A DNA stretch of 64,000 bases, taken from positions 121,705 through 185,704 of the forward strand of contig NZ_KE384013.1 of NCBI RefSeq assembly GCF_000423405.1, written 5' to 3'. The notes under the pieces were generated by a model. That model did no database searches, had not been told where the DNA came from, and saw only the letters and a program-made list of their open reading frames with translations. Origin of the DNA: Mesonia mobilis DSM 19841. GTDB lineage: Bacteria; Bacteroidota; Bacteroidia; Flavobacteriales; Flavobacteriaceae. Of this stretch, positions 26,733-45,907 are shown in pieces (the stretch's first letter is position 1; the number at the start of each line of letters is the position of its first letter). The translations under genes and the position numbers were made by a program.

Positions 26733-26739
26733 ATAAAAA

Positions 26740-27187
26740 GAATTCGAAATCGAAAGTGAAGCTGAAATTGAAAGATGAATAATGGCAAGTTTGATTTAAG
26801 TGATCGTTTAGAAGATTTTGCAGCTAGTGTAATCATTAAATATGATAAAAAGCCCCTTAGCTATGCAGGAGATTACTTAGCGAAACAATTGATACGTTCA
26901 TCTTGTTCTGCGGCTTTAAACTATGGGGAAGTTTTAGGAGCAAGTGCTTCTAAAGATAAAATCAATAAGCTTAGAATTTGCTTAAAAGAACTTAGAGAAT
27001 GTTTGAGAAATTTAAATATTCAAGTTAAAGCTGATTTGATTTCAGAAGAAAATATTTCAGATTTAATTGATGAAAACGATCAGCTCATTAGAATTATAGT
27101 CACTAGAATAAAAAATATTAAATAATAAGTTGCTCTTGAATATGAGATGATAATTATCAATTTCGAATTCAATTTCAACTTCAATTT
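26740..27187 (+). repeat. Element A: period-6 inverted arms around a four-helix-bundle gene
   Basis: The left arm (26740-26774) reads as consecutive hexads GAATTC GAAATC GAAAGT GAAGCT GAAATT GAAAG. The right arm (27158-27187), read on the opposite strand, is GAAGTT GAAATT GAATTC GAAATT. Best pairing is TGAAGCTGAAATTGAA (26757-26772) with 27168-27183, 15 of 16 bases, and GAATTCGAAATCG (26740-26752) with 27158-27170, 12 of 13. The arms fill the whole space between paaA, the small gene and paaB. Confidence 0.8.
26775..27125 (+). CDS. Four-helix-bundle protein (23S rRNA intervening-sequence family), copy A
   Basis: 116 residues, all helical, with the subfamily motif YAGDYLAKQLIRSSCSAALN and LRICLKELRECLRNL. 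The family (TIGR02436/PF05635 type) is named for ORFs inside 23S rRNA intervening sequences; related proteins are accessory factors of diversity-generating retroelements. Neither rRNA nor a reverse transcriptase is present here. It lies between paaA and paaB in their orientation, inside inverted arms. It has no link to phenylacetate chemistry. Function unknown; nucleic-acid binding is plausible from the family. Confidence 0.85.
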   Translation: MNNGKFDLSDRLEDFAASVIIKYDKKPLSYAGDYLAKQLIRSSCSAALNYGEVLGASASKDKINKLRICLKELRECLRNLNIQVKADLISEENISDLIDENDQLIRIIVTRIKNIK

Positions 27188-27197
27188 AAAAAAGTTT

Positions 27198-27491
27198 ATG
27201 TCAGACAAGAAAAAAAACTGGCCACTTTGGGAAGTTTTCGTAAGAAGTAAAAACGGATTAGAACACCGTCATTTTGGTAGTTTACACGCTGCCGATGAAG
27301 AAATGGCGTTAGAAAACGCACGCGATGTTTACACCAGAAGAAGTGAGGGCGTAAGCATTTGGGTAGTAGAGTCAAAACATATCAAAGCTTCAAATCCCGA
27401 TGAAAACGGAGAAATGTTCGAACCGGCGGCAGATAAAGTTTATCGTCATCCAACATTTTACGATTTACCCGATGAGGTAAAACACATGTAA
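27198..27491 (+). CDS. paaB: Phenylacetyl-CoA epoxidase subunit PaaB
   Basis: 97 residues. The ATG at 27198 (MSDKKKNWPLWEVFVRSK) is chosen; the frame runs further upstream to an ATG at 27147, but those codons are only the repeat arm (repeated Phe/Asn) and do not belong to the family. PaaB is the small subunit that helps dock the reductase to the PaaAC core. Conserved HRHFGSLHAADEEMALENAR and VYRHPTFYDLPDEVKHM are present. Normal length. Confidence 0.95.
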   Translation: MSDKKKNWPLWEVFVRSKNGLEHRHFGSLHAADEEMALENARDVYTRRSEGVSIWVVESKHIKASNPDENGEMFEPAADKVYRHPTFYDLPDEVKHM

Positions 27492-27511
27492 ATTCCTGAA
27501 TTAGTAGGAAT
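27492..27511 (+). repeat. Hairpin abutting the paaB stop codon
   Basis: ATTCCT/AGGAAT around an 8-base loop starts right after the TAA. It looks like a decayed copy of the hairpins after paaE and paaC. Confidence 0.5.
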
Positions 27512-27566
27512 TTTTAAAACTATTTCAGTAAAAAATGAAGTAGTTTTTCAACTAAAATAAAATTCA

Positions 27567-28322
27567 ATGAATAAAGATAGTTTAATAAAATATATTCTTG
27601 GGATTGCCGATAATTCGCTCATTCTCGGTCAACGTTTGGGGGAATTAACCGGTCACGGCCCAACCTTGGAAGTAGATATTGCGATGACGAATATTTCACT
27701 CGATCTATTTGGTCAGGTGCGTAGCTATTTTCAATATGCGGCTCAACTTTCAGAAGATGATAAAACCGAAGACGATTTTGCATTTTTACGAACCGAGCGA
27801 GAATATGTAAATGTATTGTTGGTAGAACAGCCAAATCGTGATTTTGGGTATACAATCGCACGTCAATTTTTGTTCGATCATTTTCATTTTTTATTGCTGA
27901 ATGAAATGCAAAACAGCAAAGATGAAACCTTGGTAGCTATTGCGAAGAAAAGTTTAAAAGAGGTGAGCTATCACAGAAGATTCTCTTCAGACTGGGTGAA
28001 GCGTTTAGGCGACGGAACCGAAGAAAGCAAAAGAAAAATTCAGCTAGCCATTAACGATCTGTGGCGATTTACCGAAGAGCTTTTTCAAAAAACCGAAGCC
28101 GATCTAGAAGCGATAAAAGCAGGAATTGGTGTGGAAACCGATAAAATAAAAGGAAAATACCTAGAAAATGTTTCAGCAGTTTTAGAAGAAGCAACACTTC
28201 AAAAACCGAAATTAGAATTTTTTCAGGAAGGCGGCAAAAAAGGAATTCACTCAGAGCACATGGGTTATTTGTTAAGTGATATGCAATATATGCAACGCAC
28301 CTATCCCGGAATGAAGTGGTAA
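27567..28322 (+). CDS. paaC: Phenylacetyl-CoA epoxidase structural subunit PaaC
   Basis: 251 residues. This is the ferritin-like partner of PaaA that stabilises it without a functional iron site. Typical stretches are LADNSLILGQRLGELTGHGP (here IADNSLILGQRLGEL), EYVNVLLVEQPNRDFGYTIA, and LKEVSYHRRFSSDWVKRLGD. The C-terminal HSEHMGYLLSDMQYMQRTYP is also standard. Length is normal. Confidence 0.95.
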   Translation: MNKDSLIKYILGIADNSLILGQRLGELTGHGPTLEVDIAMTNISLDLFGQVRSYFQYAAQLSEDDKTEDDFAFLRTEREYVNVLLVEQPNRDFGYTIARQFLFDHFHFLLLNEMQNSKDETLVAIAKKSLKEVSYHRRFSSDWVKRLGDGTEESKRKIQLAINDLWRFTEELFQKTEADLEAIKAGIGVETDKIKGKYLENVSAVLEEATLQKPKLEFFQEGGKKGIHSEHMGYLLSDMQYMQRTYPGMKW

Positions 28323-28401
28323 ATTCCTGCGCAGGCAGGAATCTAAAAGTATGTAAGCAGAATGTCACACTGAGCTTGTCGAAGTGTTGATTCAGCATCA
28401 C
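28323..28401. repeat. Hairpin after paaC and a TGAGC..GTCGAAG palindrome
   Basis: ATTCCTGC/GCAGGAAT (28323-28342) begins at the base after the stop codon, identical in stem to the one after paaE. It is followed by GTCACACTGAGC/TTGTCGAAGTG (28364-28386) and a TTGATTCAGCATC remnant, both of the dispersed palindrome family. Confidence 0.75.
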
Positions 28402-28432
28402 ATCATAAGCTTAAATAGAATAGCAATATAAA

Positions 28433-28933
28433 ATGATCGAAGAAAAAGTACATATTTCAGAAGAATTAGAACCGATACTCAAGCAAGTTTCGGATCCTGA
28501 AATTCCCGTGCTTTCGATCATCGATTTGGGAGTTGTTCGTTCCGCAGAATTCAACAACGGAATTGCCGAAATAAAGATCACGCCAACCTACAGTGGTTGT
28601 CCTGCCATGGATGTAATTGGCGACGATATTAAAGCCGCACTTTTAGAAGCCGGTTATAAGGCAAAAGTCGATTTAATTTTATCGCCCGCTTGGTCAACCG
28701 ATTGGATTACCGAAGAGGGAAGACAAGCGTTAGAAGATTATGGTATTGCGGCTCCGTTAGAAGCCAGCGCCGATAAAAAAGCCTTGCTGGGAGAAACTCA
28801 AGTGGTAAAATGCACCAATTGTAAATCTAAAAATACACAAATGGTAAGTCAGTTTGGTTCCACAGCTTGCAAAGCCTTGTTTAAGTGTAACGATTGCCAA
28901 GAACCGTTTGACTATTTTAAATGTTTAATCTAA
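28433..28933 (+). CDS. paaD: Phenylacetyl-CoA epoxidase subunit PaaD
   Basis: 166 residues. The N-terminal MIP18/DUF59 domain (VSDPEIPVLSIIDLGVVR, PTYSGCPAMDVIGDDI) is followed by a C-terminal zinc-ribbon-like part with CTNCKSKN, ACKALFKCNDC and a terminal Cys. PaaD is required for the epoxidase and is thought to help mature its metal centres. The length is normal and the position in the operon is as expected. Confidence 0.93.
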   Translation: MIEEKVHISEELEPILKQVSDPEIPVLSIIDLGVVRSAEFNNGIAEIKITPTYSGCPAMDVIGDDIKAALLEAGYKAKVDLILSPAWSTDWITEEGRQALEDYGIAAPLEASADKKALLGETQVVKCTNCKSKNTQMVSQFGSTACKALFKCNDCQEPFDYFKCLI

Positions 28934-28934
28934 G

Positions 28935-29016
28935 GAAATTGAAACCGAATCTGAACTCGAAATTGAAAAGAGTTAGAAAACCTTCGACTTCAATTTCATT
29001 TTCAAATTCAAGTTCT
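28935..29016. repeat. ORF-less hairpin of period-6 units between paaD and paaG
   Basis: The left half reads as GAAATT GAAACC GAATCT GAACTC GAAATT GAAAAG; the right half is the inverted form (TTCGAC TTCAATTTC ATTTTC). GAACTCGAAATTGAAAA pairs with TTTTCAAATTCAAGTTC at 14 of 17 bases. It resembles the arms of element A brought together without the gene between them. Confidence 0.7.
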
Positions 29017-29023
29017 AATAAAT

Positions 29024-29806
29024 ATGAGCAAAAGCATTCAAGTTGAAATAAAAGATCAAGTAGCCAAAATAAGTCTCAACCGACCGGAAGTTTTCAATAG
29101 CTTTAATCGAGAAATGGCATTTGCACTTCAAGATGAATTGAAAAGTTGCGCATCCAATAAAGAAGTACGTGCCATTTTATTAACCGGAAATGGTAAAGCC
29201 TTTTGTGCGGGTCAAGATCTAAAAGAAGTAACCGATCCGGAGTTAAATCCCGGTTTCAAATCTATTCTAGAAGAGCATTACAATCCCATTATTCAGCTAA
29301 TAAGAAGTATTGAAAAACCAATTGTGGCAGCCGTTAATGGTGTTGCCGCTGGAGCCGGAGCAAACATTGCTTTGGCTTGCGATATTGTTGTTGCTTCAGA
29401 ACACGCGGCATTTATTCAAGCTTTTAGTAAAATAGGCTTAATTCCCGACAGTGCAGGGACTTTCTTTTTACCGCGTTTAATTGGTTTTCAAAAAGCATCA
29501 GCATTAGCGATGTTAGGCGATAAAGTTTCTGCGGAAGAAGCCGAACGCTTAGGGATGATCTACAACTATTTTTCAGCTGAATCTTTTGAAGAAGAAACCT
29601 GGAAAATGGCAACGCATTTAGCCAAAATGCCAACGAAAGCTTTGGCCTTGACCAAAGAAGCGCTCAATCAATCATTAACCAATAATTTGGAAGAGCAATT
29701 GGCATTAGAATCGAAAAATCAGATCGAAGCCGCTTCCACAGCAGATTACAAAGAAGGCGTAAACGCTTTCATCGAAAAAAGAAAACCAAATTTTAAAGGA
29801 GAATAG
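29024..29806 (+). CDS. paaG: Ring-1,2-epoxyphenylacetyl-CoA isomerase PaaG
   Basis: 260 residues of the crotonase fold. It turns the epoxide into oxepin-CoA and also shifts double bonds in the later beta-oxidation steps. Oxyanion-hole regions KAFCAGQDLKE and AGAGANIALACDIVVA are present. The stretch KIGLIPDSAGTFFLPRLIG carries the Asp typical of PaaG in place of the hydratase glutamates, which separates it from the PaaF-type gene further on. Confidence 0.92.
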   Translation: MSKSIQVEIKDQVAKISLNRPEVFNSFNREMAFALQDELKSCASNKEVRAILLTGNGKAFCAGQDLKEVTDPELNPGFKSILEEHYNPIIQLIRSIEKPIVAAVNGVAAGAGANIALACDIVVASEHAAFIQAFSKIGLIPDSAGTFFLPRLIGFQKASALAMLGDKVSAEEAERLGMIYNYFSAESFEEETWKMATHLAKMPTKALALTKEALNQSLTNNLEEQLALESKNQIEAASTADYKEGVNAFIEKRKPNFKGE

Positions 29807-30278
29807 ATTAACGATTATAGAATTTTGATTTTAGATTGTTGTTATGAATTAAGTGAAATAAGAAATTATGAAACCTATTGAATTAGAAGATAGACTCATT
29901 CAGTTTGCTATTGATACAATTATATTCTGTAAAACAATTGAAAAAAGTTTTGCCGGAGATTATTTATCTAAGCAGTTAATTAGATCTGCGAGTGCTTCCG
30001 CGTTAAATTATGGTGAAGCTAGAAGTGCCGAGTCTACTCGTGATTTCCTTCATAAAATGAAAATTTGCTTAAAAGAACTTAGAGAATGCTTGATCAATCT
30101 AAAAATTCAAAAAGGAGCAAAACTAGTCTCAAATGTAGAAAGTATTGATAAATTATTAAAAGAGAATAATGAGCTTATTTCAATTTTTGTGATTAGTGTA
30201 AAAACATCAACTTCTAAACTAAATGCAAAAAAATAATCAAAAATCGTTAATCCCTAATCTTATAAATCATAAATCAAT
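29806..30278 (+). repeat. Element B: period-7 inverted arms around a four-helix-bundle gene
   Basis: From the last base of the paaG stop the left arm reads as heptads GATTAAC GATTATA GAATTTT GATTTTA GATTGTT. The right arm on the opposite strand reads GATTTAT GATTTAT (AA) GATTAGG GATTAAC GATTTTT GATTATT. GATTAACGATT (29806-29816) pairs perfectly with 30242-30252. The arms occupy all space up to the paaH start. Confidence 0.8.
29868..30236 (+). CDS. Four-helix-bundle protein (23S rRNA intervening-sequence family), copy B
   Basis: 122 residues, helical. It belongs to the same subfamily as copy A: SFAGDYLSKQLIRSASASAL, NYGEARSAES, MKICLKELRECLINLKI. The two are clearly homologous but far from identical, so this is not a recent local duplication. 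It sits between paaG and paaH in their orientation, inside heptad arms. Function unknown. Confidence 0.85.
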   Translation: MKPIELEDRLIQFAIDTIIFCKTIEKSFAGDYLSKQLIRSASASALNYGEARSAESTRDFLHKMKICLKELRECLINLKIQKGAKLVSNVESIDKLLKENNELISIFVISVKTSTSKLNAKK

Positions 30279-31457
30279 ATGACCATCGGAATTATAGGTA
30301 GCGGAACAATGGGAAGTGGAATTGCACAAGTAGCAGCCACCGCCGGTTGTTTTGTGAAAGTTTATGATACCAATCAAGAAGCTTTAACTAAAAGTGAAGC
30401 GAAACTCAATAAAGTTTTACTACGTCTCATCGAAAAAGAACGAATTGATGAAGCTGAAAAAAACAGAATTCAAGGGAATATCAGCTATGTAAATTCAATT
30501 CAAGAATTAGCCGATGCCGATTTAACCATTGAAGCAATTATTGAAAATCTTGAGATCAAACAAAAAGTATTTCGTGAGTTAGAAGCTTGCCAAAAAGAAG
30601 ATGCTATTATTGCATCCAACACTAGTTCGTTATCGATTGCTTCGATAGCTTCTGCTTTACAAAAACCGGAGCGCGTGATCGGAATTCATTTCTTTAATCC
30701 GGCGCCATTAATGCCGTTGGTAGAAATTATTCCGGCCGTGCAAACTTCCGAAGCGGTCAAAGAAAAAGTAGTTCAAATTATAGCCGATTGGAAGAAAGTA
30801 GGCGTGCTTGCTAAAGATACACCGGGTTTCATTGTAAATCGTGTCGCCAGACCATTTTATGGAGAAGCTTTACGAATTTATGAAGAAGGAAAAGCCGATA
30901 TCCCGACGATCGATCAAGCATTAAAAGAACTCGGTGGCTTTAGAATGGGACCATTCGAGTTGATGGATTTTATTGGCCACGATGTCAATTACACCGTAAC
31001 CGAAACCGTATTTAGAGAATTTTATTACGATCCACGTTATAAACCCTCTTTTACTCAAAAACGCTTAAAAGAAGCCGGTTACTTAGGTCGCAAAACCGGA
31101 AAAGGGTTTTATGATTACCAAGACGGTAAAATTGATAAAAGCCGTCATCCTGAACTTGATTCAGGATCTCATCAAAATGAGCTTTCCCAGCAAATTCTTG
31201 ATCGCGTTTTAGTGATGCTCATCAACGAAGCTGCAGACGCATTATTTTTAAATATCGCCACCGCAAAAGATATCGATCTAGCAATGACTAAAGGCGTAAA
31301 TTATCCGAAAGGATTGTTAGCCTGGGCCAACGAAAAAGGAATCGATTGGTGTGTTGAAAATATGGATTTACTTTATCAAGAATATCACGAAGATCGTTAC
31401 CGTTGCAGTCCATTATTAAGAAAAATGGCGAGAGAAAATAAAGAATTTACGATATGA
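30279..31457 (+). CDS. paaH: 3-hydroxyacyl-CoA dehydrogenase PaaH
   Basis: 392 residues. It oxidises 3-hydroxyadipyl-CoA to 3-oxoadipyl-CoA with NAD. The Rossmann motif IGSGTMGSGIAQVAA, the HFFNPAPLMPLVEI segment and PGFIVNRVARPFYGEALRI are clear, and the C-terminal domain is complete. After TGKGFYDYQDGKIDK a stretch SRHPELDSGSHQ is inserted that is the in-frame translation of a dispersed palindromic repeat; it falls in a linker before the last helical part and keeps the frame. The stop overlaps the paaI start by four bases (ATGA). Confidence 0.94.
   Translation: MTIGIIGSGTMGSGIAQVAATAGCFVKVYDTNQEALTKSEAKLNKVLLRLIEKERIDEAEKNRIQGNISYVNSIQELADADLTIEAIIENLEIKQKVFRELEACQKEDAIIASNTSSLSIASIASALQKPERVIGIHFFNPAPLMPLVEIIPAVQTSEAVKEKVVQIIADWKKVGVLAKDTPGFIVNRVARPFYGEALRIYEEGKADIPTIDQALKELGGFRMGPFELMDFIGHDVNYTVTETVFREFYYDPRYKPSFTQKRLKEAGYLGRKTGKGFYDYQDGKIDKSRHPELDSGSHQNELSQQILDRVLVMLINEAADALFLNIATAKDIDLAMTKGVNYPKGLLAWANEKGIDWCVENMDLLYQEYHEDRYRCSPLLRKMARENKEFTI
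31142..31173 (+). repeat. Palindromic repeat inside the paaH coding sequence
   Basis: CCGTCATCCTGAAC/TTGATTCAGGATCTCATC is the same family as the intergenic palindromes at 17119, 23664 and 31951. Here it is translated in frame as SRHPELDSGSH, comparable in principle to the palindromic elements known inside Rickettsia genes. Confidence 0.85.
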
Positions 31458-31861
31458 TAAATGGTGCTGAAATCCCTAAAAAGATGCTCTCACTCGACGC
31501 TTTTAGTCAGTGGCTCGGTATCGAAATTGTAGAGGTTCGCGAAGGCTATTGCAAGGTGAAAATGACGGTAAGAAAAGAAATGCTCAATAGCATGAAAAAA
31601 GCGCACGGTGGGATCACGTATTCGCTGGCAGATACCGCGTTTGGCTTTGCGACCAACACATTCGGTAATAAAGCCGTTTCTATCGAAACTTCCATCAATC
31701 ACGTAGAAGCACTCGTAGAAGGCGATGTGATTGTGGCAGAATCAGACGTGAAAAGCCAAAAAAATAAACTTGGTTTTTACATTGTTGAGGTCAAAAAAGA
31801 AGATCAATTAGTCGCACTTTTTAAAGGCGTCACCTATAAAACGAGTGCAAAATGGGAATAA
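31454..31861 (+). CDS. paaI: Hotdog-fold acyl-CoA thioesterase PaaI
   Basis: 135 residues. The hotdog signature MKKAHGGITYSLADTAFGFA holds the catalytic region. PaaI clears ring-hydroxylated phenylacetyl-CoA and other dead-end esters that would trap CoA. The start overlaps the end of paaH by four bases, so the two are translationally coupled. Normal length. Confidence 0.93.
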   Translation: MINGAEIPKKMLSLDAFSQWLGIEIVEVREGYCKVKMTVRKEMLNSMKKAHGGITYSLADTAFGFATNTFGNKAVSIETSINHVEALVEGDVIVAESDVKSQKNKLGFYIVEVKKEDQLVALFKGVTYKTSAKWE

Positions 31862-31909
31862 ACAAATGCATTATTCAATCTGCTGAAGTGTAATTTTAAA
31901 ATAATAAGG

Positions 31910-32010
31910 GCGCAACCCTAGCGGGTCGGGCTATTCGCTATATCTTTTTTGTTGTCATGCTGAGCTTGTCGAAGCACAACAAAAAAGGATGCCGCTGCTA
32001 TCCCTTGCGC
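31910..32010. repeat. Nested repeat: palindrome inside a GCGCAA-ended element
   Basis: The outer element runs from GCGCAACCCTAGCGGGTCGG to GATGCCGCTGCTATCCCTTG-CGC, with GCGCAA/TTGCGC ends and TTTTTT/AAAAAA around its centre. Its centre is taken by GTTGTCATGCTGAGC/TTGTCGAAGCACAAC (31951-31980), a member of the other palindrome family. The related copy at 35898-35984 has a different centre. Confidence 0.75.
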
Positions 32011-32034
32011 AAAAACATAAAAAAGAAGAGAGAA

Positions 32035-33246: not shown

Positions 33247-33269
33247 TTAAGGATTTTGAAGTTTATAAT

Positions 33270-33298
33270 GTCACCTCGAGCGGAGTCGAGAGGTCAAC
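33270..33298. repeat. Short palindrome between paaJ and paaZ
   Basis: GTCACCTCGAGC/GGAGTCGAGAGGTC belongs to the dispersed TGAGC..GTCGAAG family in a CTCGA variant. Confidence 0.7.
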
Positions 33299-33316
33299 AA
33301 TAAAACACTAGAAAGA

Positions 33317-35833: not shown

Positions 35834-35852
35834 AAAGTATAAAAATAAAAGT

Positions 35853-35984: not shown

Positions 35985-36012
35985 AAAAAATATAAATACA
36001 AAAAGCGATTTT

Positions 36013-36771: not shown

Positions 36772-37217
36772 ATTGGAGAAGGTAGAGATGAGAGGTGAGT
36801 CGTTCTAAGATTAGTGATTATGAAAAGTAACTATTATTTTAAATTTGAAGATTTAAAAGTTTATCAAAAAGCAATAGACTTTGGAGAACAAGTAAATCAT
36901 CAAATTGAAAAATTTCCAAATCACGAGACTTATAAATTAGCTACTCAATTTATAAGAGCAGCAGATTCTATTGCTTTAAATATAGCGGAAGGTTCTGCAA
37001 GTACAGATGCAAATTTTATTCGTTATCTAAAAATGGCTTGGGATAGTAGCCACGAATGCGTTGCAGCATCAACCAAAGCACGACTTCGAAATTATATAGG
37101 TTTTGATGAGGATGAAGCAAATAGAAAAGCGATTACAGAAATTTCTAAGATGATTTCATCTTTAATCAACCACTTGAAAAATAAATAAACTCACCACTCA
37201 TCTCTCAAAACTAAAAG
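36771..37217 (+). repeat. Element C: period-7 inverted arms around a four-helix-bundle gene
   Basis: Starting in the paaF stop codon the left arm reads as heptads GATTGGA GAAGGTA GAGATGA GAGGTGA GTCGTTC. The right arm on the opposite strand reads GTTTTGA GAGATGA GTGGTGA GT. AGAGATGAGAGGTGAGT (36784-36800) pairs with 37189-37205 at 16 of 17 bases, and the right arm starts at the base after the small gene's stop. Confidence 0.85.
36814..37188 (+). CDS. Four-helix-bundle protein (23S rRNA intervening-sequence family), copy C
   Basis: 124 residues, helical. It has the more usual family motif YKLATQFIRAADSIALNIAE followed by GSASTDANFIRYLKMA. It is of a different subfamily from copies A and B. 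It lies between paaF and paaY in the same orientation, with its stop codon touching the right inverted arm. Function unknown. Confidence 0.87.
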   Translation: MIMKSNYYFKFEDLKVYQKAIDFGEQVNHQIEKFPNHETYKLATQFIRAADSIALNIAEGSASTDANFIRYLKMAWDSSHECVAASTKARLRNYIGFDEDEANRKAITEISKMISSLINHLKNK

Positions 37218-37225
37218 TCTATAAA

Positions 37226-37822
37226 ATGATCTACAGTTTCAAAAACCACATTCCCGTCATTCACGAAAGCAGTTTTGTGCATCCGTTGGCGGCAGTAACC
37301 GGTAATGTAATAATCGGAAAAGACTGCTATATTGGTCCGGGAGCGGCAATTCGTGGCGATTGGGGAGAAATAATATTAGAAGATGGTGTTAACGTACAAG
37401 AAAATTGTACCGTTCATATGTTCCCCGGCAAAAGTATTGTGCTCAAAAAAGGAGCGCACGTAGGTCACGGAGCTATTATTCACGGTGCCAATTTAGGCGA
37501 AAACTGCTTGATCGGGATGAATTCAGTGATAATGGATGATGCTGAAATTGGTGATGAATGTATCGTTGGTGCGATGGCATTTGTAAAAGCAGAAACCCGC
37601 ATACCAAAACGAAGTTTAGTCGTTGGCAATCCGGCAAAAGTGATAAAAGAAATCTCTGATGATATGATCGCTTGGAAAACAGCCGGAACAAAACTTTATC
37701 AACGTTTACCGGCAGATTGCCACGAAAGTTTGCGTGAGGTTGAACCTTTACGAGAAATTCCTAAAGATCGTCCCGAGCAAGAGAACTTTTACCAAACCTT
37801 AAACGAGTTTAGGGAAAAATAA
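37226..37822 (+). CDS. paaY: PaaY, hexapeptide-repeat thioesterase/gamma-carbonic-anhydrase-like protein
   Basis: 198 residues. The left-handed beta-helix is evident from repeated I/V-G-x-x units (VIIGKDCYIGPGAAIRGDWG, GHGAIIHGANLGENCLIGMN). Metal-binding His residues occur in CTVHMFPGK and GAHVGHGAIIHGA. In other bacteria PaaY hydrolyses the CoA ester of a dead-end oxepin product, relieving CoA depletion. The length matches PaaY rather than short carbonic-anhydrase homologues. Confidence 0.9.
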   Translation: MIYSFKNHIPVIHESSFVHPLAAVTGNVIIGKDCYIGPGAAIRGDWGEIILEDGVNVQENCTVHMFPGKSIVLKKGAHVGHGAIIHGANLGENCLIGMNSVIMDDAEIGDECIVGAMAFVKAETRIPKRSLVVGNPAKVIKEISDDMIAWKTAGTKLYQRLPADCHESLREVEPLREIPKDRPEQENFYQTLNEFREK

Positions 37823-37865
37823 GATTAAATTTGAAGAGCAATTTCCAAAAAAGGAATATTCAGTA

Positions 37866-39176: not shown

Positions 39177-39640
39177 TTCAAGACGTGTTGAAACAAGATA
39201 TTTGAATTTTAATGAGAAGACATAATTTTAAAAAGTTACAAATTTGGATTGAAGCTATGGATTTAATAGATGAAAATTATCTCTTAACATCAGAACTGCC
39301 CGATTATGAAAAATTTGGTTTAAGAACACAGATGAATCGTTCTTCAGTCTCCATTGCTTCAAATATTTCTGAGGGTTCAAGCAAACGAACAAACAAGCAT
39401 TTTGTAAAATACTTAGACGATAGTTTAGGTTCAGCATGCGAATGGGAAACTCAATTAAATGTCTGTTTTCGACAAAATTTCATTTCAGAAGATAAGTTTC
39501 AAGATCTAGAAAAGAAAGTTCAAAAATTACAAAGTAAAATTTCAAATTTTATTGATTCATTAGATATGAATGAATGATTTTTTAAAAAAGCAGAAAGCAT
39601 CATATTTCAAAAAGTCATGCTTCCTGTTTCAAAACAAAAT
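39177..39640 (+). repeat. Element D: period-7 inverted arms around a four-helix-bundle gene
   Basis: The left arm reads GATTCAA GACGTGT (T) GAAACAA GATATTT GAATTTT from just before the E2 stop. The right arm on the opposite strand reads GAAACAG GAAGCAT GACTTTT (T) GAAATAT GATGCTT. TTGAAACA (39188-39195) pairs with TGTTTCAA (39625-39632). The pairing is shorter than in A, C or E but the heptad phase is kept in both arms. Confidence 0.65.
39212..39577 (+). CDS. Four-helix-bundle protein (23S rRNA intervening-sequence family), copy D
   Basis: 121 residues, helical. It carries FGLRTQMNRSSVSIASNISE and GSSKRTNKHFVKYLDDSLGS, the classic motif of the family. It is placed between the E2 and E1 genes of one enzyme complex, in their orientation, so it must be tolerated within a co-transcribed unit. 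Function unknown. Confidence 0.88.
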   Translation: MRRHNFKKLQIWIEAMDLIDENYLLTSELPDYEKFGLRTQMNRSSVSIASNISEGSSKRTNKHFVKYLDDSLGSACEWETQLNVCFRQNFISEDKFQDLEKKVQKLQSKISNFIDSLDMNE

Positions 39641-39643
39641 ATA

Positions 39644-41689
39644 ATGATAAATAAAGATATCCTTAAAAAAGCCTTTCGTCACCTTTGTACGGCGAAGGCG
39701 ATGACCGAGTTATACGAAGAGAACTTTAAGGTAGTTTCTAAATATGTACATGCAACCTCGCGCGGCCACGAAGTCATTCAAACTGCAGTGGGGATGCAAT
39801 TGTTGCCACAAGATTATGTGTTTCCGTATTACCGAGACGATTCCATTTTATTGTCGATCGGGATGGAACCAAAAGACTTGATGTTGCAGTTATTTGCCAA
39901 AAAAGACGATCCTTTTTCCGGTGGAAGAACCTATTATTCGCACCCGAGTTTGCGTGATGACGATAAACCTAAAGTTCCGCATCAAAGTTCAGCCACGGGA
40001 ATGCAAGCTATTCCGGCTACGGGAGTAGCGATGGGAATGTGGTACAAAGAAACCGAAGGAATTCAAGATACCGAAAAGCCAGTCGTGGTTTGCTCACTCG
40101 GTGACGCTTGTGTAACCGAAGGAGAAGTTGCAGAAGCTTTTCAAATGGCGGTGTTAAAGAAATTACCTATTCTTTACATCGTGCAAGATAACGGTTGGGA
40201 TATTTCTGCGAACGAGAAAGAAACACGAGCGCAAAACGCTGCAGAATATGCAAGAGGTTTTAATGGTTTAGAGGCAATTTCGATTGACGGAACTAATTTT
40301 GAAGAAAGTTATAGCACGGTCAAAAATGCGATTGAAACGATTCGGGAAGAACGAAGACCAATGCTTATTCACGCGAAAGTTCCGTTATTAAATCACCATA
40401 CTTCAGGAGTTCGAATGGAATTTTATCGCGACGATTTAGAAGAAGCAAAAACACGCGATCCTTTTCCGAAGATGAAAAAATATTTAGCTGAAAATGGTTT
40501 TTCCGAAGATGAATTGGAAGCGATTGAAGCTTTAGCTCGTGTGAAAGTAAAAGAAGATTATTTAGAAGCTGAAAAAGCCGAAGACCCTTCACCGGAAGAT
40601 TTATTTACACACGATTTTGCACCTACGACGGTTACCGAAGAAAAAGGAGAACGCTCTCCGGAAGGCGGCGAAAAAGTAGTGATGGTCGATTGTGCATTAC
40701 ACGCCATAGAAGAGATTATGCACAACGACAAAACCAGTTTGTTGTACGGTCAAGATGTTGGTGGTCGTTTGGGCGGTGTTTTTCGTGAAGCAGCAACCTT
40801 AGCTCAAAAATTCGGGGATAATCGAGTTTTTAATACGCCAATTCAAGAAGCATTCATTATTGGTTCAACGGTTGGGATGTCTGCCGTTGGTTTAAAACCT
40901 ATCGTTGAAGTTCAGTTTGCCGATTATATTTGGCCGGGTCTCAATCAATTATTTACCGAAGTAAGTAGAAGCTGCTATTTATCGAATGGTAAATGGCCGG
41001 TTTCAATGGTGCTGCGTGTACCGATTGGCGCTTACGGTAGCGGAGGTCCTTACCATTCTTCTTCCGTAGAAAGTGTAGTAACCAATATTCGCGGACTCAA
41101 AATAGCGTATCCAAGCAACGGAGCCGATTTAAAAGGATTATTGAAAGCTGCTTATCACGACCCAAATCCGGTGGTGATCTTTGAACATAAAGGTTTGTAT
41201 TGGAGCAAAGTTCCCGGTACTAAAGGTGCAACGTCTATCGAACCTGCAGCAGATTATGTATTGCCATTCGGTAAAGCTTGGGTTTTACAAGAGATCTGGA
41301 AACAAGAAGAGAAAGAAACCATTGCTATTGTAACTTATGGTATGGGCGTGCATTGGGCGATGAATGCTTCCGAAGAATTAGGAATGCAAGACCAAATTGA
41401 AGTGATCGATCTACGAACCCTTGCTCCGCTTGATGAAGAAACTGTGATGAAATCGGTAAAAAAATGTGGTAAATGTTTAGTAGTAACCGAAGAACCATCG
41501 AACAATACGTTTGCTAGAGCACTTTCAGGAAAAATTCAGGAAGAATGTTTTAAATATTTAGACGCTCCAGTGATGACAATCGGTTCAGAAAATATGCCGG
41601 CAATTCCGTTAAACTCAACTTTAGAAGAAACGATGATTCCTTCCACAGCAAAAGTGAAAAATAAAATTGAAGAACTTTTAGCTTATTAG
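39644..41689 (+). CDS. 2-oxoacid dehydrogenase E1, fused alpha and beta subunits
   Basis: 681 residues from the ATG at 39644 (MINKDILKKAFRHLC). An ATG nine codons earlier lies in the right arm of element D and is less likely. The alpha half holds the thiamine-diphosphate motif (VVCSLGDACVTEGEVAEAFQ ... VQDNGWDISAN), the beta half the DVGGRLGGVFREAATLAQKF and FADYIWPGLNQL segments. This fused arrangement is of the branched-chain 2-oxoacid dehydrogenase type. Substrate range cannot be read from sequence; branched-chain 2-oxoacids are the default, phenylpyruvate a context-based alternative. A terminator follows. Confidence 0.9.
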   Translation: MINKDILKKAFRHLCTAKAMTELYEENFKVVSKYVHATSRGHEVIQTAVGMQLLPQDYVFPYYRDDSILLSIGMEPKDLMLQLFAKKDDPFSGGRTYYSHPSLRDDDKPKVPHQSSATGMQAIPATGVAMGMWYKETEGIQDTEKPVVVCSLGDACVTEGEVAEAFQMAVLKKLPILYIVQDNGWDISANEKETRAQNAAEYARGFNGLEAISIDGTNFEESYSTVKNAIETIREERRPMLIHAKVPLLNHHTSGVRMEFYRDDLEEAKTRDPFPKMKKYLAENGFSEDELEAIEALARVKVKEDYLEAEKAEDPSPEDLFTHDFAPTTVTEEKGERSPEGGEKVVMVDCALHAIEEIMHNDKTSLLYGQDVGGRLGGVFREAATLAQKFGDNRVFNTPIQEAFIIGSTVGMSAVGLKPIVEVQFADYIWPGLNQLFTEVSRSCYLSNGKWPVSMVLRVPIGAYGSGGPYHSSSVESVVTNIRGLKIAYPSNGADLKGLLKAAYHDPNPVVIFEHKGLYWSKVPGTKGATSIEPAADYVLPFGKAWVLQEIWKQEEKETIAIVTYGMGVHWAMNASEELGMQDQIEVIDLRTLAPLDEETVMKSVKKCGKCLVVTEEPSNNTFARALSGKIQEECFKYLDAPVMTIGSENMPAIPLNSTLEETMIPSTAKVKNKIEELLAY

Positions 41690-41700
41690 TTATTGTGCGT

Positions 41701-41733
41701 GACCCTGTTAACAAAAACAGGGTCGGGCTTTTT
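41701..41733 (+). terminator. Terminator at the end of the paa/E1-E2 cluster
   Basis: A perfect 9-base stem GACCCTGTT/AACAGGGTC is followed by GGGC and five T. It lies 11 bases after the E1 stop codon and closes the long same-strand run. Confidence 0.75.
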
Positions 41734-41799
41734 GGTACAATCTTTTTAGGTTGTTTTCTCTACTATATCCTCAAGTGGCAACTCAAAAGAATTTCCCCT

Positions 41800-41807
41800 T
41801 AAATTTG
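41800..41807 (+). promoter_or_regulatory. Possible -7 element for the PPK2 gene
   Basis: TAAATTTG fits TAnnTTTG and lies 61 bases before the PPK2 start, after the preceding terminator. No clear -33 TTG is seen. Confidence 0.35.
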
Positions 41808-41868
41808 CCATTCAAAATCATCTAGTAGTTTGATTATTTTATTAACTTTAATAATCAATCCATTGTTT

Positions 41869-42750
41869 ATGCAACCAACAAAGACTTCCCCTTATCAAGT
41901 GAAGGGAACTGTTCAATTAGCCAAAAAATCGACGTTGGCCAAGTTAGAAACTTCAGATAAAAAATTAGAAAAACAACTTTCTCATCAACGAAAAAAACTA
42001 GCGGAATTTCAAGACCGTATGTATGCTCATGGAAAATATGCCGTACTAATCTGTATACAGGGTATGGATACTTCCGGCAAAGACAGTTTGATACGGGAAG
42101 TTTTTAAAGATCTAAATGCACGAGGAGTGGTGGTACATAGTTTTAAAACACCTTCAAAAAAAGAATTGCGACATGATTACCTGTGGCGGCATTATTTGGC
42201 TTTGCCCGAGAGGGGTAAATTTAGTGTTTTTAACCGTACCCATTATGAAAATGTATTGGTAACAAGGGTTCATCCAGAATATATTCTTTCAGAAAATATT
42301 CCCCATATAAATAAGGTCAGTGATATTTCTGAAAGATTTTGGAAACAGCGTTATCAAGAAATAAATAATTTTGAAGAGCACCTAACTCAAAATGGTACTT
42401 TGGTATTCAAATTTTTTCTGCATATTTCCAAAGAAGAACAACGGCAGCGATTATTGCGGAGATTGAATAAACCCAATAAAAATTGGAAATTTTCTTCTGG
42501 GGATTTAAAAGAACGGGCACTTTGGGAAAATTATCAAGAATGTTATGAAAAAGCTATTTCCCAAACCTCTACAGAAAATGCCCCCTGGTATATTATCCCT
42601 TCAGATAATAAAAAAGAAAGCAGGTTGATTTTAACCGAAATTCTTTTAGAAGAATTATCCAAACTTAAGGATGTTAAAGAACCCGAGTTGGACAAAGAAA
42701 CACAGATCAATCTTGATCTTTACAAGGAACAATTAAACAAAGAGTTGTAG
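41869..42750 (+). CDS. Polyphosphate kinase 2 family protein
   Basis: 293 residues from the ATG at 41869 (MQPTKTSPYQVKG). A TTG 13 codons upstream would add a hydrophobic stretch foreign to the family. PPK2 enzymes transfer phosphate between polyphosphate and nucleotides. The Walker A motif GMDTSGKDSLI and the lid and Walker B region (FNRTHYENVLVTRVHPEY) are present; the full P-loop kinase domain is intact. It is a single gene with its own flanking terminators. It uses CGG for Arg more than its neighbours, a weak hint of different origin. Confidence 0.92.
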   Translation: MQPTKTSPYQVKGTVQLAKKSTLAKLETSDKKLEKQLSHQRKKLAEFQDRMYAHGKYAVLICIQGMDTSGKDSLIREVFKDLNARGVVVHSFKTPSKKELRHDYLWRHYLALPERGKFSVFNRTHYENVLVTRVHPEYILSENIPHINKVSDISERFWKQRYQEINNFEEHLTQNGTLVFKFFLHISKEEQRQRLLRRLNKPNKNWKFSSGDLKERALWENYQECYEKAISQTSTENAPWYIIPSDNKKESRLILTEILLEELSKLKDVKEPELDKETQINLDLYKEQLNKEL

Positions 42751-42754
42751 AACA

Positions 42755-42783
42755 AAAAAACTCTTCGCTATGAAGAGTTTTTT
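42755..42783. terminator. Bidirectional terminator between PPK2 and the DUF4136 gene
   Basis: A perfect 12-base stem AAAAAACTCTTC/GAAGAGTTTTTT with a GCTAT loop lies between convergent genes. Confidence 0.9.
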
Positions 42784-42788
42784 ATCTG

Positions 42789-43328
42789 TTACTTTTTTTC
42801 ACCATCAGGGGGATAACGTTCTATAATTTTTTGAACCATTTCATTAATACGTTCAATTTTATCATCCATATCCATCGTTAGCGCTCCCGTTCCCATTCCT
42901 TGCCAAACCAATTCCATCGATTCTGCATCGATCAAATCAATGTACAAAGTACCTTCGGTAGTTCTCGAAACGGTGTTGTAACCATTACCCCAATACCAAG
43001 GGCTCCAGCCCCAACCGTACCCCCAACCAAAATTATTTTGGTAAATGTTTACGTTCTCTTTAGTCTTGGTAAAAATACTTACGAGCAAGTCAGGATTTTC
43101 CGACTTTGAGAATCCTTTTGCAGTCATTTCAGCTTCAATTGCACGTAAAATACGCTTCTTATCTAAATCTGAAACATCTGCTTTATCGATGCCCGGCTTG
43201 TAGAATGCAAAACTTTGGTATTGATTAAAGTTTGCTTCACGATCGTAGTCTGAAGCCACTCGTACCGAACTACATGAAGTTAGCACTAATAAAAAGGCTA
43301 ACGGAGCTAAAAAGTTTTTTATTTTCAT
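42789..43328 (-). CDS. DUF4136 lipoprotein
   Basis: 179 residues. The lipoprotein signal is MKIKNFLAPLAFLLVLTSC. The mature part matches DUF4136: VASDYDREANFNQYQSFAFY near the start, DLLVSIFTKTKENVN, an aromatic-rich loop (GWGYGWGWSPWYWG) and LYIDLIDAESMELVWQGMG. Outer-membrane or periplasmic anchoring is expected; the function is unknown. Confidence 0.88.
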   Translation of the reverse strand: MKIKNFLAPLAFLLVLTSCSSVRVASDYDREANFNQYQSFAFYKPGIDKADVSDLDKKRILRAIEAEMTAKGFSKSENPDLLVSIFTKTKENVNIYQNNFGWGYGWGWSPWYWGNGYNTVSRTTEGTLYIDLIDAESMELVWQGMGTGALTMDMDDKIERINEMVQKIIERYPPDGEKK

Positions 43329-43343
43329 AACAAATTGTTTTAG

Positions 43344-43438
43344 GACGTTCGGGCGGGCTCTCGCGAGTCGCTTTTTTATTTTGTTTAAATCAACGAAACA
43401 AAAAGAGCTTCAACAAATCGCTCCATCCCTAACGCAGG
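43344..43438. repeat. GCGTTAGGGAT-type repeat between DUF4136 and hutU
   Basis: Read on the minus strand it begins GCGTTAGGGATGGAGCG and ends GCGAGAGCCCGCCCGAACGTC (shown as GCGAGAGCCC then GCCCGAACGTC). The ends recall the elements at 31910 and 35898, but the centre differs. It fills almost the whole 111-base gap and touches the hutU stop codon. Confidence 0.65.
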
Positions 43439-43439
43439 G

Positions 43440-45419
43440 TTAACTTAGCAAGCTCGGGTCTACTTTGTTGGGCAGAGTTACTTTTAAATTAGGCTCGTTA
43501 TCCATCGCTCGTTTAATAGCAAAAATGGCTTCATCATTTCTAGCCCAAGATCTTCTGGAAATTCCGTTGTTTACATCCCAAAAAAGCATTGACTCTAAGC
43601 GTCTTGCAGCATCTATACTACCATCAAGAAGCATACCAAAACCACCATTAATCACTTCTCCCCAACCAACGCCGCCGCCGTTGTGAATACTTACCCAAGT
43701 TGCACCTCTAAAGCTATCACCAATCACATTTTGTATCGCCATATCTGCGGTAAAGCGACTACCATCGTAAATATTAGAAGTTTCACGATAAGGAGAATCT
43801 GTACCAGAAACATCGTGATGATCTCTACCTAACACTACCGGACCAATTTTACCGGTTTTAATCGCTTCGTTAAAAGCCTTGGCAATTTTTATTCTTCCTT
43901 CAGCATCTGCATATAAAATTCGCGCTTGAGAACCAACCACGAGTTTGTTTTCTTGTGCACCTTTGATCCAAGTGATATTATCCTGCATTTGCTGCTGAAT
44001 TTCTTCCGGAGCGTCTTTTTTCAATTCTTCTAGAACCGAAGTTGCAATTTCATCGGTTTTCAATAAATCTTCAGCTTTCCCTGAAGTACAAACCCATCTA
44101 AACGGCCCAAAACCATAATCGAAACACATAGGTCCCATAATGTCTTGCACGTAACTTGGGTATTTAAAGTTTTTGCCGTCTTTACTCATAATATCTGCTC
44201 CGGCGCGAGAGGCTTCTAGTAAGAACGCATTTCCGTAGTCAAAAAAGTAAGTTCCTTTAGCGGTATGCTTGTTAATTGCATCTGCCTGGCGTTTTAAACT
44301 GCGCTGCACTTCTTTTTTAAACTGCTCAGGATTGTTGGCCATCATTTCATTAGCTTCTTCATAAGAAAGGCCAACCGGATAATAACCACCCGCCCAAGGA
44401 TTGTGTAATGAAGTTTGATCGCTACCTAAGTCGATATGCAGGTTTTCTTCATCAAACTTTTCCCATACGTCAACGATATTTCCGGCATAGGCGATCGAAA
44501 TGGTTTCTTTATCTTCCTGTGCTTTTCGCACTCGAATCACCAAATCCTCTACATCTTCAATGACTTCTTTTACCCAACCTTGTGAATGTCTTGTTTGGGT
44601 AGCTTTTGGGTTTACTTCTGCACAAACCGTTACACAACCGGCAATATCACCGGCTTTAGGTTGCGCGCCACTCATCCCACCAAGTCCGGAGGTTACAAAA
44701 AGTCCGCCTTTAGGTTCTTTTTTAATTTTTCTAAATCCGTTAAGAACAGTGATCGTAGTTCCGTGAACAATACCTTGCGGACCGATATACATATAACTTC
44801 CAGCAGTCATTTGTCCGTACTGAGTCACGCCAAGCGCGTTGAATTTTTCCCAATCGTCGGGTTGTGAGTAATTTGGGATCATCATTCCGTTGGTAACGAC
44901 TACTCTTGGCGCATCTTTATGTGAAGGGAATAAGCCCAATGGGTGACCGCTGTACATCGCCAGCGTTTGCTCATCGGTCATCTCGGCTAAATATTTCATC
45001 GTTAATAAATACTGCGCCCAGTTCTGAAAAACTGCTCCGTTACCGCCATAAGTAATCAATTCGTGCGGATGTTGCGCTACCGCATAATCCAAGTTATTTT
45101 GGATCATTAGCATAATGGCTTTCGCCTGTTGACTTTCACCCGGATATTCATCGATAGGACGTGCGTACATTTTGTAATCGGGACGAAAGCGATACATGTA
45201 AATTCTTCCGTAGGTTTCTAATTCTTCTTTGAACTCAGGAAGTAAGGTGGCGTGATGTTGAGGTTCAAAATAGCGTAATGCGTTTTGCAGTGCCAATTTT
45301 TTCTCGTCTTCCGATAAGATTTCTTTTCGCTTCGGTGCGTGATTTATAGTGGTATCGAATTCTTTCTTAGGAGGTAATTCGTTGGGAATTCCTTGTAATA
45401 GGGTTTGTTTGAAATTCAT
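43440..45419 (-). CDS. hutU: Urocanate hydratase
   Basis: 659 residues, the long form usual in Bacteroidota. It converts urocanate to imidazolone propionate in histidine breakdown, using tightly bound NAD. The NAD-binding stretch LFVTSGLGGMSGAQPKAGDI, the SDQTSLHNPWAGGYYPVGLS segment and DHHDVSGTDSPYRETS are present. Other hut genes are absent from the window. The first codons are preceded by a 7-base tandem repeat tract that may affect its promoter or leader. Confidence 0.96.
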   Translation of the reverse strand: MNFKQTLLQGIPNELPPKKEFDTTINHAPKRKEILSEDEKKLALQNALRYFEPQHHATLLPEFKEELETYGRIYMYRFRPDYKMYARPIDEYPGESQQAKAIMLMIQNNLDYAVAQHPHELITYGGNGAVFQNWAQYLLTMKYLAEMTDEQTLAMYSGHPLGLFPSHKDAPRVVVTNGMMIPNYSQPDDWEKFNALGVTQYGQMTAGSYMYIGPQGIVHGTTITVLNGFRKIKKEPKGGLFVTSGLGGMSGAQPKAGDIAGCVTVCAEVNPKATQTRHSQGWVKEVIEDVEDLVIRVRKAQEDKETISIAYAGNIVDVWEKFDEENLHIDLGSDQTSLHNPWAGGYYPVGLSYEEANEMMANNPEQFKKEVQRSLKRQADAINKHTAKGTYFFDYGNAFLLEASRAGADIMSKDGKNFKYPSYVQDIMGPMCFDYGFGPFRWVCTSGKAEDLLKTDEIATSVLEELKKDAPEEIQQQMQDNITWIKGAQENKLVVGSQARILYADAEGRIKIAKAFNEAIKTGKIGPVVLGRDHHDVSGTDSPYRETSNIYDGSRFTADMAIQNVIGDSFRGATWVSIHNGGGVGWGEVINGGFGMLLDGSIDAARRLESMLFWDVNNGISRRSWARNDEAIFAIKRAMDNEPNLKVTLPNKVDPSLLS

Positions 45420-45430
45420 AACTTATTTTT

Positions 45431-45907
45431 CAGTGTTCAGTGTTCAGTGTTCAGTGTTCAGTGTTCAGTGTTCAGTGTTCAGTGAGGTGATTTTACGCCA
45501 AATTTGTATGGGTTAAGAATCATATAATTGATAAGTTTTCCAACTTCTTCACTTTTATTGAGTAACTCTTGATAAAGAGTTTCGTTGATATAATTACATC
45601 GATAGGCAAATTCTATCCAGACCTGTGTTTCTGCATTTTCAGCATCAGAATCTGTAAGCTTACTCTTAAAATATTTTGGGTAAGGTCGTTTACGATAAGC
45701 TTCAGCTAAATTTGCAGTAACGCTTCTAGAAGATCTTCTTACTTGATCTGTTAAAGAATAGACTTCTTCTTTTGGGAATTTTTTAGAGATTTCAAAAATT
45801 TTCATAGCTAAATCGATTGATTTTTTATAGGCCAATAAGTCCTGAAATTTCATAAATATTAATTTTATTGATAGAACATTTAACTGTTTACTGCCAACTG
45901 AATACTA
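45431..45907 (-). repeat. Element E: period-7 inverted arms, one arm a perfect 7-base tandem repeat
   Basis: The left arm (45431-45484) is CAGTGTT repeated 7.7 times without error. The right arm (45881-45907), read on the opposite strand, is AGTATTC AGTTGGC AGTAAAC AGTTA, keeping AGT and C at a 7-base period. Every AGT/C position can pair with the left arm. The left arm overlaps the end of the small gene; the right arm overlaps the stop codon of the next gene. Confidence 0.85.
45479..45853 (-). CDS. Four-helix-bundle protein (23S rRNA intervening-sequence family), copy E
   Basis: 124 residues, helical. It has YSLTDQVRRSSRSVTANLAE, very close to the family consensus, then AYRKRPYPKYFKSKL. It lies between the DUF5522 gene and hutU, in their orientation, and its last codons run into the CAGTGTT repeat. 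Its C-terminus may therefore vary with repeat number. Function unknown. Confidence 0.88.
   Translation of the reverse strand: MKFQDLLAYKKSIDLAMKIFEISKKFPKEEVYSLTDQVRRSSRSVTANLAEAYRKRPYPKYFKSKLTDSDAENAETQVWIEFAYRCNYINETLYQELLNKSEEVGKLINYMILNPYKFGVKSPH

Follow-up and report, generated by a model that had tools for sequence, protein, structure and literature searches.

Genes of the S23/IVP four-helix-bundle family lie between mostly inverted heptad-repeat arms in the operons of diverse bacteria

We analysed a 64,000-nt stretch of the genome of Mesonia mobilis DSM 19841 (contig NZ_KE384013.1, positions 121,705 to 185,704; hereafter the window), in which five genes of the S23/IVP four-helix-bundle (FHB) family, a family known from the intervening sequences (IVSs) of 23S rRNA, each lie between protein-coding genes and are flanked by short repeats. 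As judged from sequence, such elements show heptad repeats beside the gene, inverted arms, a motif and period that fit the protein, a bias towards the sense orientation, replacement at shared sites, loss by deletion and purifying selection. We consider it probable that they represent an IVS-like selfish element of operon mRNA, in which the open reading frame (ORF) would be looped out by a stem of heptads recognised by the element's own pentameric FHB protein.

Genes and proteins were counted as FHB when they passed the cut-offs of PF05635 and TIGR02436. All five genes of the window do so, and the whole M. mobilis genome (G000; GC approximately 0.355 across 464 kb sampled on the window's contig) holds eleven. 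The positions and the host orientation given to these five genes by an initial annotation were confirmed: each gene has the same strand as the closest long ORF to its left and to its right, which for element E is the minus strand. The elements measure approximately 440–480 bp. Of the neighbouring genes, PaaA, PaaB, PaaD, 3-hydroxyacyl-CoA dehydrogenase and HutU were named above the NCBIfam cut-off; paaG, hbd, paaY, E1 and E2 fall below it and are used as labels only. The parts of the five elements (A to E), together with a related hairpin, are given below in window positions.

26733–26774, plus strand: left arm of element A, degenerate GAANNY hexads immediately past the paaA stop, a lag-6 array
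26775–27125, plus strand: FHB gene of element A, 116 aa, PF05635 at 43.7 bits (cut-off 33.8) and TIGR02436
27154–27190, plus strand: right arm of element A, reverse-complement hexads, a lag-6 array inside the longest ORF reading into paaB
28932–29011, plus strand: hexad hairpin without a gene, GAANNY motif as in element A
29802–29843, plus strand: left arm of element B, GATTNNN heptads
29868–30236, plus strand: FHB gene of element B, 122 aa, PF05635 and TIGR02436
30237–30277, plus strand: right arm of element B, GATTNNN heptads, inverted
36772–36806, plus strand: left arm of element C, GAGGTGA-like heptads with a 17-nt core at 36784–36800
36814–37188, plus strand: FHB gene of element C, start GTG at 36814 or ATG at 36820, PF05635 and TIGR02436
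37189–37208, plus strand: right arm of element C, partner of the 17-nt inverted pair
39177–39211, plus strand: left arm of element D, weak, CAAGA..TTGAA units, inverted score 12
39212–39577, plus strand: FHB gene of element D, 121 aa, PF05635 and TIGR02436
39578–39635, plus strand: right arm of element D, weak, extending into the next listed ORF
45429–45484, minus strand: arm downstream of the gene of element E, perfect heptads, (CACTGAA)n on the gene strand, overlapping the stop codon
45479–45853, minus strand: FHB gene of element E, 124 aa, PF05635 and TIGR02436, also bAvd PF22296 at 45.5 bits (cut-off 40)
45882–45909, minus strand: arm upstream of the gene of element E, three AGTNNNC heptads, inverted relative to the downstream arm

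The arms of element A form a 20-nt inverted pair at 90% identity with lag-6 arrays on each side, those of B a 40-nt pair at 70% and those of C a 17-nt pair at 94%. As RNA, element C has a minimum free energy structure in which the two arms pair around the ORF (z -4.34), and the gene-less hairpin at 28932–29011 folds at -17.4 kcal/mol (z -2.45, with 2 of 200 shuffles equally good). The downstream arm of E reads as a TTCAGTG run. Own-arm inverted scores were 16, 14, 15, 12 and 11 for A to E; four D elements scored 10, 8, 14 and 10 with their own arms, no better than the mean of 10.9 with each other's. D is weak, and both D and E are unconvincing alone; it is the family-wide arm statistics that carry the case.

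For these we examined 177 FHB elements, the majority from Bacteroidota, of which 176 were usable for arm-pair scoring. A first set of 68 loci came from M. mobilis, its genus and its family (67 used, the short locus L066 being dropped), a second of 30 more elements was found by searching 118 genomes of the same phylum, and a third came from 80 named loci (those that scored best among 585 confirmed), with 61 Bacteroidota-type records and 18 from other groups scored. Cyanobacterial plasmids contributed a further nine cases, out of 10 matches listed (25 plasmid records in all). The 177 elements are best-scoring matches unthinned for relatedness, and because they were chosen in this way one site is over-represented; the assignments of metagenome-assembled genomes (MAGs) in the other groups may be wrong. 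Periodicity was measured as identity at a given lag within 60-nt flanks, and arms were counted as inverted when the best local score of the upstream flank against the reverse-complemented downstream flank was at least 12. ORF starts were set by rule; at least three (L121, L184 and L238) look wrong, an effect that can only blur the signal. Several motif names, arm directions and remnants of individual arms were judged by eye on printed sequences.

FHB flanks have a period of seven, with identity of 0.39–0.46 at lag 7 and 0.25–0.35 at lags 5, 6, 8 and 9. In the first set (67 loci) mean identity was 0.462 and 0.430 for lags 7 and 14, and 0.299 and 0.331 for lags 6 and 8, compared with lag-7 values of 0.291 inside the ORFs and 0.301 in the flanks of 335 other genes of the same genome. 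Lag-7 identity was 0.389 in the 30 elements of the second set, 0.435 in the 61 Bacteroidota-type records of the third and 0.393 in the 18 from other groups (0.409 with L229, whose upstream flank was masked and which is also the source of a false period-5 entry among the period calls). The nine plasmid cases reached 0.548, with heptads such as GGGAACA and AAAAGCT. A clear period was called in 140 elements, being 7 nt in 109, 8 nt in 26 and 6 nt in only two, one of them element A. The periods noted initially, hexads in A and heptads in B, C and E, hold within the window; family-wide the hexad as normal unit is rejected, since 7 nt predominates. Arrays scoring at least 8 at lag 7 were found in 187 of 354 arms, most commonly with 4–5 units (97/187); at other lags the numbers were 2 (lag 4), 3 (lag 5), 15 (lag 6), 45 (lag 8), 10 (lag 9) and 7 (lag 10). 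A further hexad element like A is L332, another FHB locus in Geobacter sp. AOG1 (the genome of L236), with 6-nt repeat arms GGTAAA and TTTACC.

Inverted arms were found in 122 of 176 elements (69%), compared with 6–20% of mispaired arms. In the first set 47/67 had them, whereas the threshold was reached by 14.8% of the mispaired pairs (n=804), 9.3% of the shuffled ones (n=335) and 12.2% of 335 control genes. In the second set the figures were 19/30 and 9% of mispaired arms, and in the third 43/61 and 20% for Bacteroidota-type records and 13/18 and 6% for the other groups. Moreover, the predicted RNA duplex averaged -22.0 kcal/mol for own arms (n=176), -13.5 for mispaired arms (n=1056) and -13.7 for shuffled ones. 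Among 204 pairs at shared sites, own arms scored above cross arms in 130, below in 67 and equally in 7, a preference that is real but not overwhelming, the pairs being non-independent. A comparison with control flanks had been set beforehand as a test of the arrangement, and the flanks of other FHB genes proved far more periodic, and also more inverted, than those of controls. A chance origin of period and inverted arms is rejected by the mispaired, shuffled and gene controls.

The repeats also match the protein that they surround. At unrelated sites, similar arms were found in 7% of pairs below 40% protein identity (250 pairs sampled), in 63% at 60–65% identity (n=75) and in 74% at or above 65% (n=38). 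TGTANNN heptads, for example, are common to L189, L195 and L200 at three sites, and L058 and L233 have an 8-nt repeat in common, which in both is unusual in being directly oriented. Period tracks protein as well: 18 of 26 period-8 elements had a period-8 nearest relative elsewhere, where permutation gave a mean of 4.7 and a maximum of 14. We then asked which residue columns of protein E foretell similar arms better than overall identity does (184 elements, 8985 pairs). Columns 103 (0.192), 1 (0.171) and 55 (0.154) exceeded the family-wise 95% level of 0.144 from 500 permutations, although only column 103 tops the highest permutation value (0.179); columns 109, 105 and 106 ranked next. A second arm measure picks the same protein segments, the two analyses sharing their data.

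An AlphaFold2 model of protein E (mean pLDDT 96.6) has helices at 7–23, 28–54, 59–85 and 91–113, which puts the predictive columns in the N-terminus, the loop between the second and third helices (H2-H3) and the second half of the fourth (H4). In this model they are predicted to sit towards the same end of the up-down-up-down bundle. Among known structures, the model matches 2gsc (TM-score 0.86) and 2rld (0.80), both entries having five chains, and one study describes a Xanthomonas family member as a toroidal homopentamer (PMC4990558). The median isoelectric point of FHB proteins is 8.77. They are under purifying selection, with a median ratio of nonsynonymous to synonymous substitution rates (dN/dS) of 0.10 in 21 same-site pairs, 17 of which had a finite dS.

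FHB genes mostly point in the direction of their neighbours. Both neighbours were known for 172 of the 177 elements (5 were incomplete): 156 run the same way as both, 3 run against both, and 13 are placed between divergent or convergent genes. Of the nine plasmid cases, 6 share the strand of both neighbours, 2 have the strand opposite to both, and 1 is mixed. The neighbours are long ORFs, and the initial suggestion of life in mRNA spacers is supported. Certain junctions recur: 37 of the 177 elements lie at one that in M. mobilis separates a FadB-like gene from an acetyl-CoA acyltransferase, and 14 lie between an acyltransferase and an acyl-CoA dehydrogenase. At the former (the fadB–fadA-type site; 666 pairs), FHB identity correlated with that of the two host genes at rho 0.08 and 0.11, compared with 0.92 between the host genes themselves. 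Vertical inheritance at this shared site is therefore rejected; as FHB identity does not follow the hosts, copies must have been replaced there.

We also compared the paa regions of 20 relatives. FHB genes occupied different junctions from genome to genome, every match being sense, and were found at site A in 2 relatives, at B in 9, at C in 5 and at D in 3, the coverage of junctions being incomplete; elsewhere the two cistrons abut or overlap. At hbd–paaI, for example, the genes overlap by 4 nt in M. mobilis and are separated by 418–438 nt with an FHB gene in G014, G002, G004 and G011. Six other relatives (loci L293, L295, L298, L299, L300 and L301) have 457–479 nt at this junction with no FHB match and seemingly another small ORF inside. 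Copies with an internal deletion that keep both arms were seen in G002 at site D and in G004 at site C, and these two gene-less hairpins arose by loss of the gene. Filled, empty and deleted states of orthologous junctions were thus recovered. Differing junctions, a motif match across sites and an FHB-host rho of about 0.1 together uphold repeated insertion and replacement over local duplication.

Arrays and hairpins without an FHB gene are present at other orthologous loci too, only the two just described being traced to internal deletion. Some repeat the motif seen around an FHB gene elsewhere in their operon, as do the hexads at paaD–paaG1 in G000, G002 and G015 and the GATTNNN hairpin at hbd–paaI in G028, yet G004 has a hexad hairpin at the junction equivalent to 28932–29011 without having element A. 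Some relatives have AGTNNTG (TGAGTNN) arrays at paaA–paaB. Across 16 congeners, genomes with more FHB copies tend to have more ACTGNNN and TGAGTNN arrays (rho 0.68 and 0.69). ACTGNNN arrays are absent from all four genomes that have one FHB gene or none, but also from G003, G001 and G007 with 6, 4 and 8 FHB genes, and G009, which is free of FHB, holds one TGAGTNN array. Read backwards, the ACTGNNN pattern gave 6 matches against 160, whereas TGAGTNN spells the same pattern backwards and has no such control. Arrays scoring at least 11 away from FHB genes numbered 5 in 864 kb of FHB-rich genomes (G000 2, G008 0, G011 3) and 1 in 800 kb of FHB-poor ones (G009 0, G006 0, G012 1); the sampled stretches of G008 and G011 held no FHB gene, and the whole-genome pattern counts are clearer than these densities. 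Near the end of the window, GAANNY-type hexad and heptad arrays (62725–62767, 62943–62988, 63586–63631 and 63703–63776) surround one ORF, with no FHB gene found near them.

The arrangement extends well beyond Flavobacteriia. The other-group records, which as a set show the lag-7 signal, include candidate phyla radiation (CPR) bacteria, Nitrospirales, Pyrinomonadaceae, Geobacter, Thiohalocapsa and one Methanophagales MAG. Copy number can be high, with 11 FHB genes in approximately 1 Mb of a Falkowbacteria MAG (G222, locus L226), 16 in a Pyrinomonadaceae MAG (G213, L192) and 16 matches in a Clostridia MAG (G217, L212). On two cyanobacterial plasmids an FHB gene with heptad arrays lies between cas6 and cas4 (L340, Pseudanabaena galeata pPg_01, 1201–1560; L344, Anabaena sp. 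90 pANA02, 1204–1572), where these genes are perhaps passengers and not cas genes. Rfam found no rRNA at 10 FHB loci of other phyla, and one FHB protein had no match among phage records (E-value at most 1e-5).

Classic IVSs lie in helix 9, 25 or 45 of 23S rRNA. An Rfam scan of the window found no rRNA, as initially stated, and no intron family match. Kinship with IVSs is nevertheless supported: those of Coxiella, and of Leptospira and others cited in the Coxiella study, share with the FHB elements the protein family, a sense ORF and inverted arms around it. In Coxiella, tandem heptamers stand upstream of an S23p ORF that is sense to the rRNA and placed in the predicted loop of a 28-bp stem cut by RNase III (PMC4990558). 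Heptamers beside the ORF are thus a further likeness to the Coxiella IVS, though not a defining trait of IVSs in general. In contrast to these, FHB elements lie between protein-coding genes and have a heptad motif that varies by element and fits the protein. The S23/IVP proteins are described as having no known function (PMC4990558).

Heptads also occur in other settings. In the available text on the Nostoc tRNALeu group I intron, the P6b stem consists of degenerate heptads of class I (TDNGATT) or class II (NNTGAGT), with repeated swapping of one class for the other (PMC4476775). The two classes correspond to the GATTNNN heptads of element B and to the AGTNNTG arrays at some relatives' paaA–paaB, but P6b is an intron stem with no FHB gene mentioned in that text, whereas FHB arms flank a gene; Rfam found no group I intron core in the window. 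TAACTGA heptamer arrays are reported to be intergenic in Beggiatoaceae, Cyanobacteria and five Bacteroidetes, those in the main genome lying mostly directly upstream of start codons, and bacterial heptanucleotide repeat abundance has been attributed to polymerase slippage (PMC4679880 and work cited there). The terms 'helix bundle' and 'intervening' are absent from the main text of that paper, whereas here arrays bracket FHB genes. A paper on CPR rRNA-gene inserts (PMC11270868) contains no S23, four-helix or heptamer terms. Titles and abstract openings of the open-access literature, preprints excluded, gave among the matches listed no link between FHB genes outside rRNA and flanking heptads. 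The initial view that the arrangement was undescribed does not wholly hold, heptamers upstream of an S23p ORF having been reported once, in the Coxiella 23S gene. The breadth and the protein-repeat match go well beyond the published rRNA-resident form.

How, then, might such an element persist? We favour an RNA-borne, IVS-like element because the Coxiella IVS is its closest parallel, and the sense bias, purifying selection and arm-protein fit agree with this. The element would be co-transcribed in the sense direction with the host operon from an intercistronic gap. In the transcript its arms would form a stem with the ORF looped out, by analogy with 23S IVSs. A pentameric FHB protein could recognise its cognate heptads with a single end of the bundle, made up of the N-terminus, the H2-H3 loop and the second half of H4, and the stem would be cut by RNase III or shielded by FHB, dividing the operon mRNA. 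Such an element may be tolerated because cutting between cistrons costs the neighbours little. FHB would finally help new copies to establish, often at spacers already occupied.

Several observations weigh against this reading. Shuffling the heptad order in one arm lowered the inverted score from 14.1 to 11.5, reaching p<=0.05 in 15 of 103 elements; because the fall is modest, the signal is partly motif-level, perfect unit-by-unit palindromes are weakly supported, and a motif-level inversion could equally reflect sites for protein binding. In some elements (L052, L058, L233 and L340) the two arms are direct and not inverted repeats, and 17 of 67 in the first set reach a score of 12 in direct orientation too. 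Only 103 of the 177 elements passed a filter for heptads on both sides. Of 13 ACTGNNN places in M. mobilis, 12 adjoin no PF05635 gene. On the cyanobacterial plasmids only 5 of 9 cases have inverted arms (mispaired 30%), L339 lacks heptads, and L339 and L341 are opposed to both neighbours. A target duplication was sought at hbd–paaI, where the element ends run into both ORFs, and no clean one was readable. Lastly, the Coxiella authors hold that S23p is probably not made from the 23S IVS (PMC4990558).

The motif-level inversion would also fit a mobile element acting at the DNA level, an alternative that we regard as unlikely but deserving of attention, in which the heptads would be clustered end-binding sites resembling the subterminal repeats of transposons, FHB an accessory protein, a nuclease supplied in trans the mover and RNA pairing incidental. 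It would also accommodate a motif and period cognate to the protein, the replacement of FHB at a shared site, and the many gene-less arrays, as non-autonomous copies would be. However, a DNA transposon should not give 156 sense against 3 antisense copies unless selection removes the antisense ones, the five window proteins have no transposase or nuclease domain by Pfam, and hbd–paaI, the single junction inspected for a target duplication, yielded none that could be read. It explains the motif-level inversion and the spread, not the sense bias. REPIN/RAYT systems likewise comprise short palindromic elements kept with a dedicated protein and have gene-less genomic copies. They differ in that FHB is all-helical and not a Y1 transposase, and in that the repeats here are degenerate heptads; Pfam matches of the five window ORFs at E-values of at most 0.001 were only IVP and bAvd, the rest of the genome being unsearched for RAYT.

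Purifying selection (dN/dS about 0.1) and the recurrence of the fadB–fadA-type (37/177) and acyltransferase–acyl-CoA dehydrogenase (14) junctions could instead reflect a regulatory module kept as useful, with FHB an autoregulator that binds heptads in operon mRNA and tunes the mRNA stability or translation of the neighbouring catabolic genes. We think this improbable: FHB occupancy of sites A to D is patchy, FHB at a shared site does not track the host, decaying copies exist, G009 does without any FHB, and the recurrence itself may owe something to a sample taken by best hidden Markov model score, which may over-represent one site.

The fold raises a further alternative. Avd, the helper protein of diversity-generating retroelements (DGRs), has a four-helix fold (bAvd, 4dwl) that the model of protein E matches at TM-scores of 0.77/0.88 (E-value 0.013), and protein E also scores above the bAvd Pfam cut-off. 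FHB might then be an Avd-like helper of a reverse transcriptase (RT) acting in trans, with degenerate heptads arising from error-prone copying, which would be in keeping with the sense bias. We give this little credence, since protein E reaches at best 36.7 bits where the DGR Avd equivalog model asks for 80, no RT lies on the window's contig, and the genome's only RVT_1 match is on another one. Moreover, four FHB-rich congeners have no RVT_1 match (G004 with 9 FHB genes, G011 with 11, G007 with 8 and G010 with 7, the last 90% complete), which speaks against a present need for an RT in trans. Least credible, and already disfavoured, is a neutral by-product in which slipping heptad hairpins born of replication error caught a common small gene: perfect runs such as that downstream of E show slippage and gene-less arrays do exist, but control genes lack the lag-7 signal, motif and period track the protein, and two heptad pattern counts follow FHB copy number among the 16 congeners.

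Besides the elements, the window contains a Flavo-1 RNA (Rfam RF01705, 60.9 bits) at 31920–32015 on the minus strand, in the gap that separates the next thiolase-like ORF from the one whose end is at 31861. Short palindromes of a second type, ATTCCTGCG.AGGCAGGAAT, occur between genes at 25571–25593, 27489–27511 and 28320–28342 and at several relatives' junctions too; they look REP-like to the eye and are unlike the heptads. At 27147–27197 the arm may be translated as NFEFNFNFN, an N-terminal extension before paaB, and at the right end of L289 (hbd–paaI in G014) the arm possibly provides a new paaI N-terminus. Because arms may be translated in this way, annotated starts beside such arrays may be unreliable.

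In summary, we return to the IVS-like element of operon mRNA. A wider proposal, which we hold to be evenly balanced, is that FHB elements form an as yet unrecognised, bacteria-wide class of selfish RNA-borne elements with a protein-repeat code, that 23S IVSs are its rRNA branch, and that the 7-nt repeats of bacteria and cyanobacteria (TAACTGA, Nostoc P6b and the cyanobacterial STRR repeats) are largely its footprint. With heptads beside FHB genes in Flavobacteriia, CPR bacteria and cyanobacterial plasmids alike, the match between protein and repeat opens the function of S23/IVP proteins and the abundance of heptads to direct testing, as it predicts which repeat each FHB protein should bind and by which end of the bundle. 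Moreover, FHB genes found within host operons, the two plasmid copies flanked by cas6 and cas4 for example, may be passengers and not parts of the pathway.

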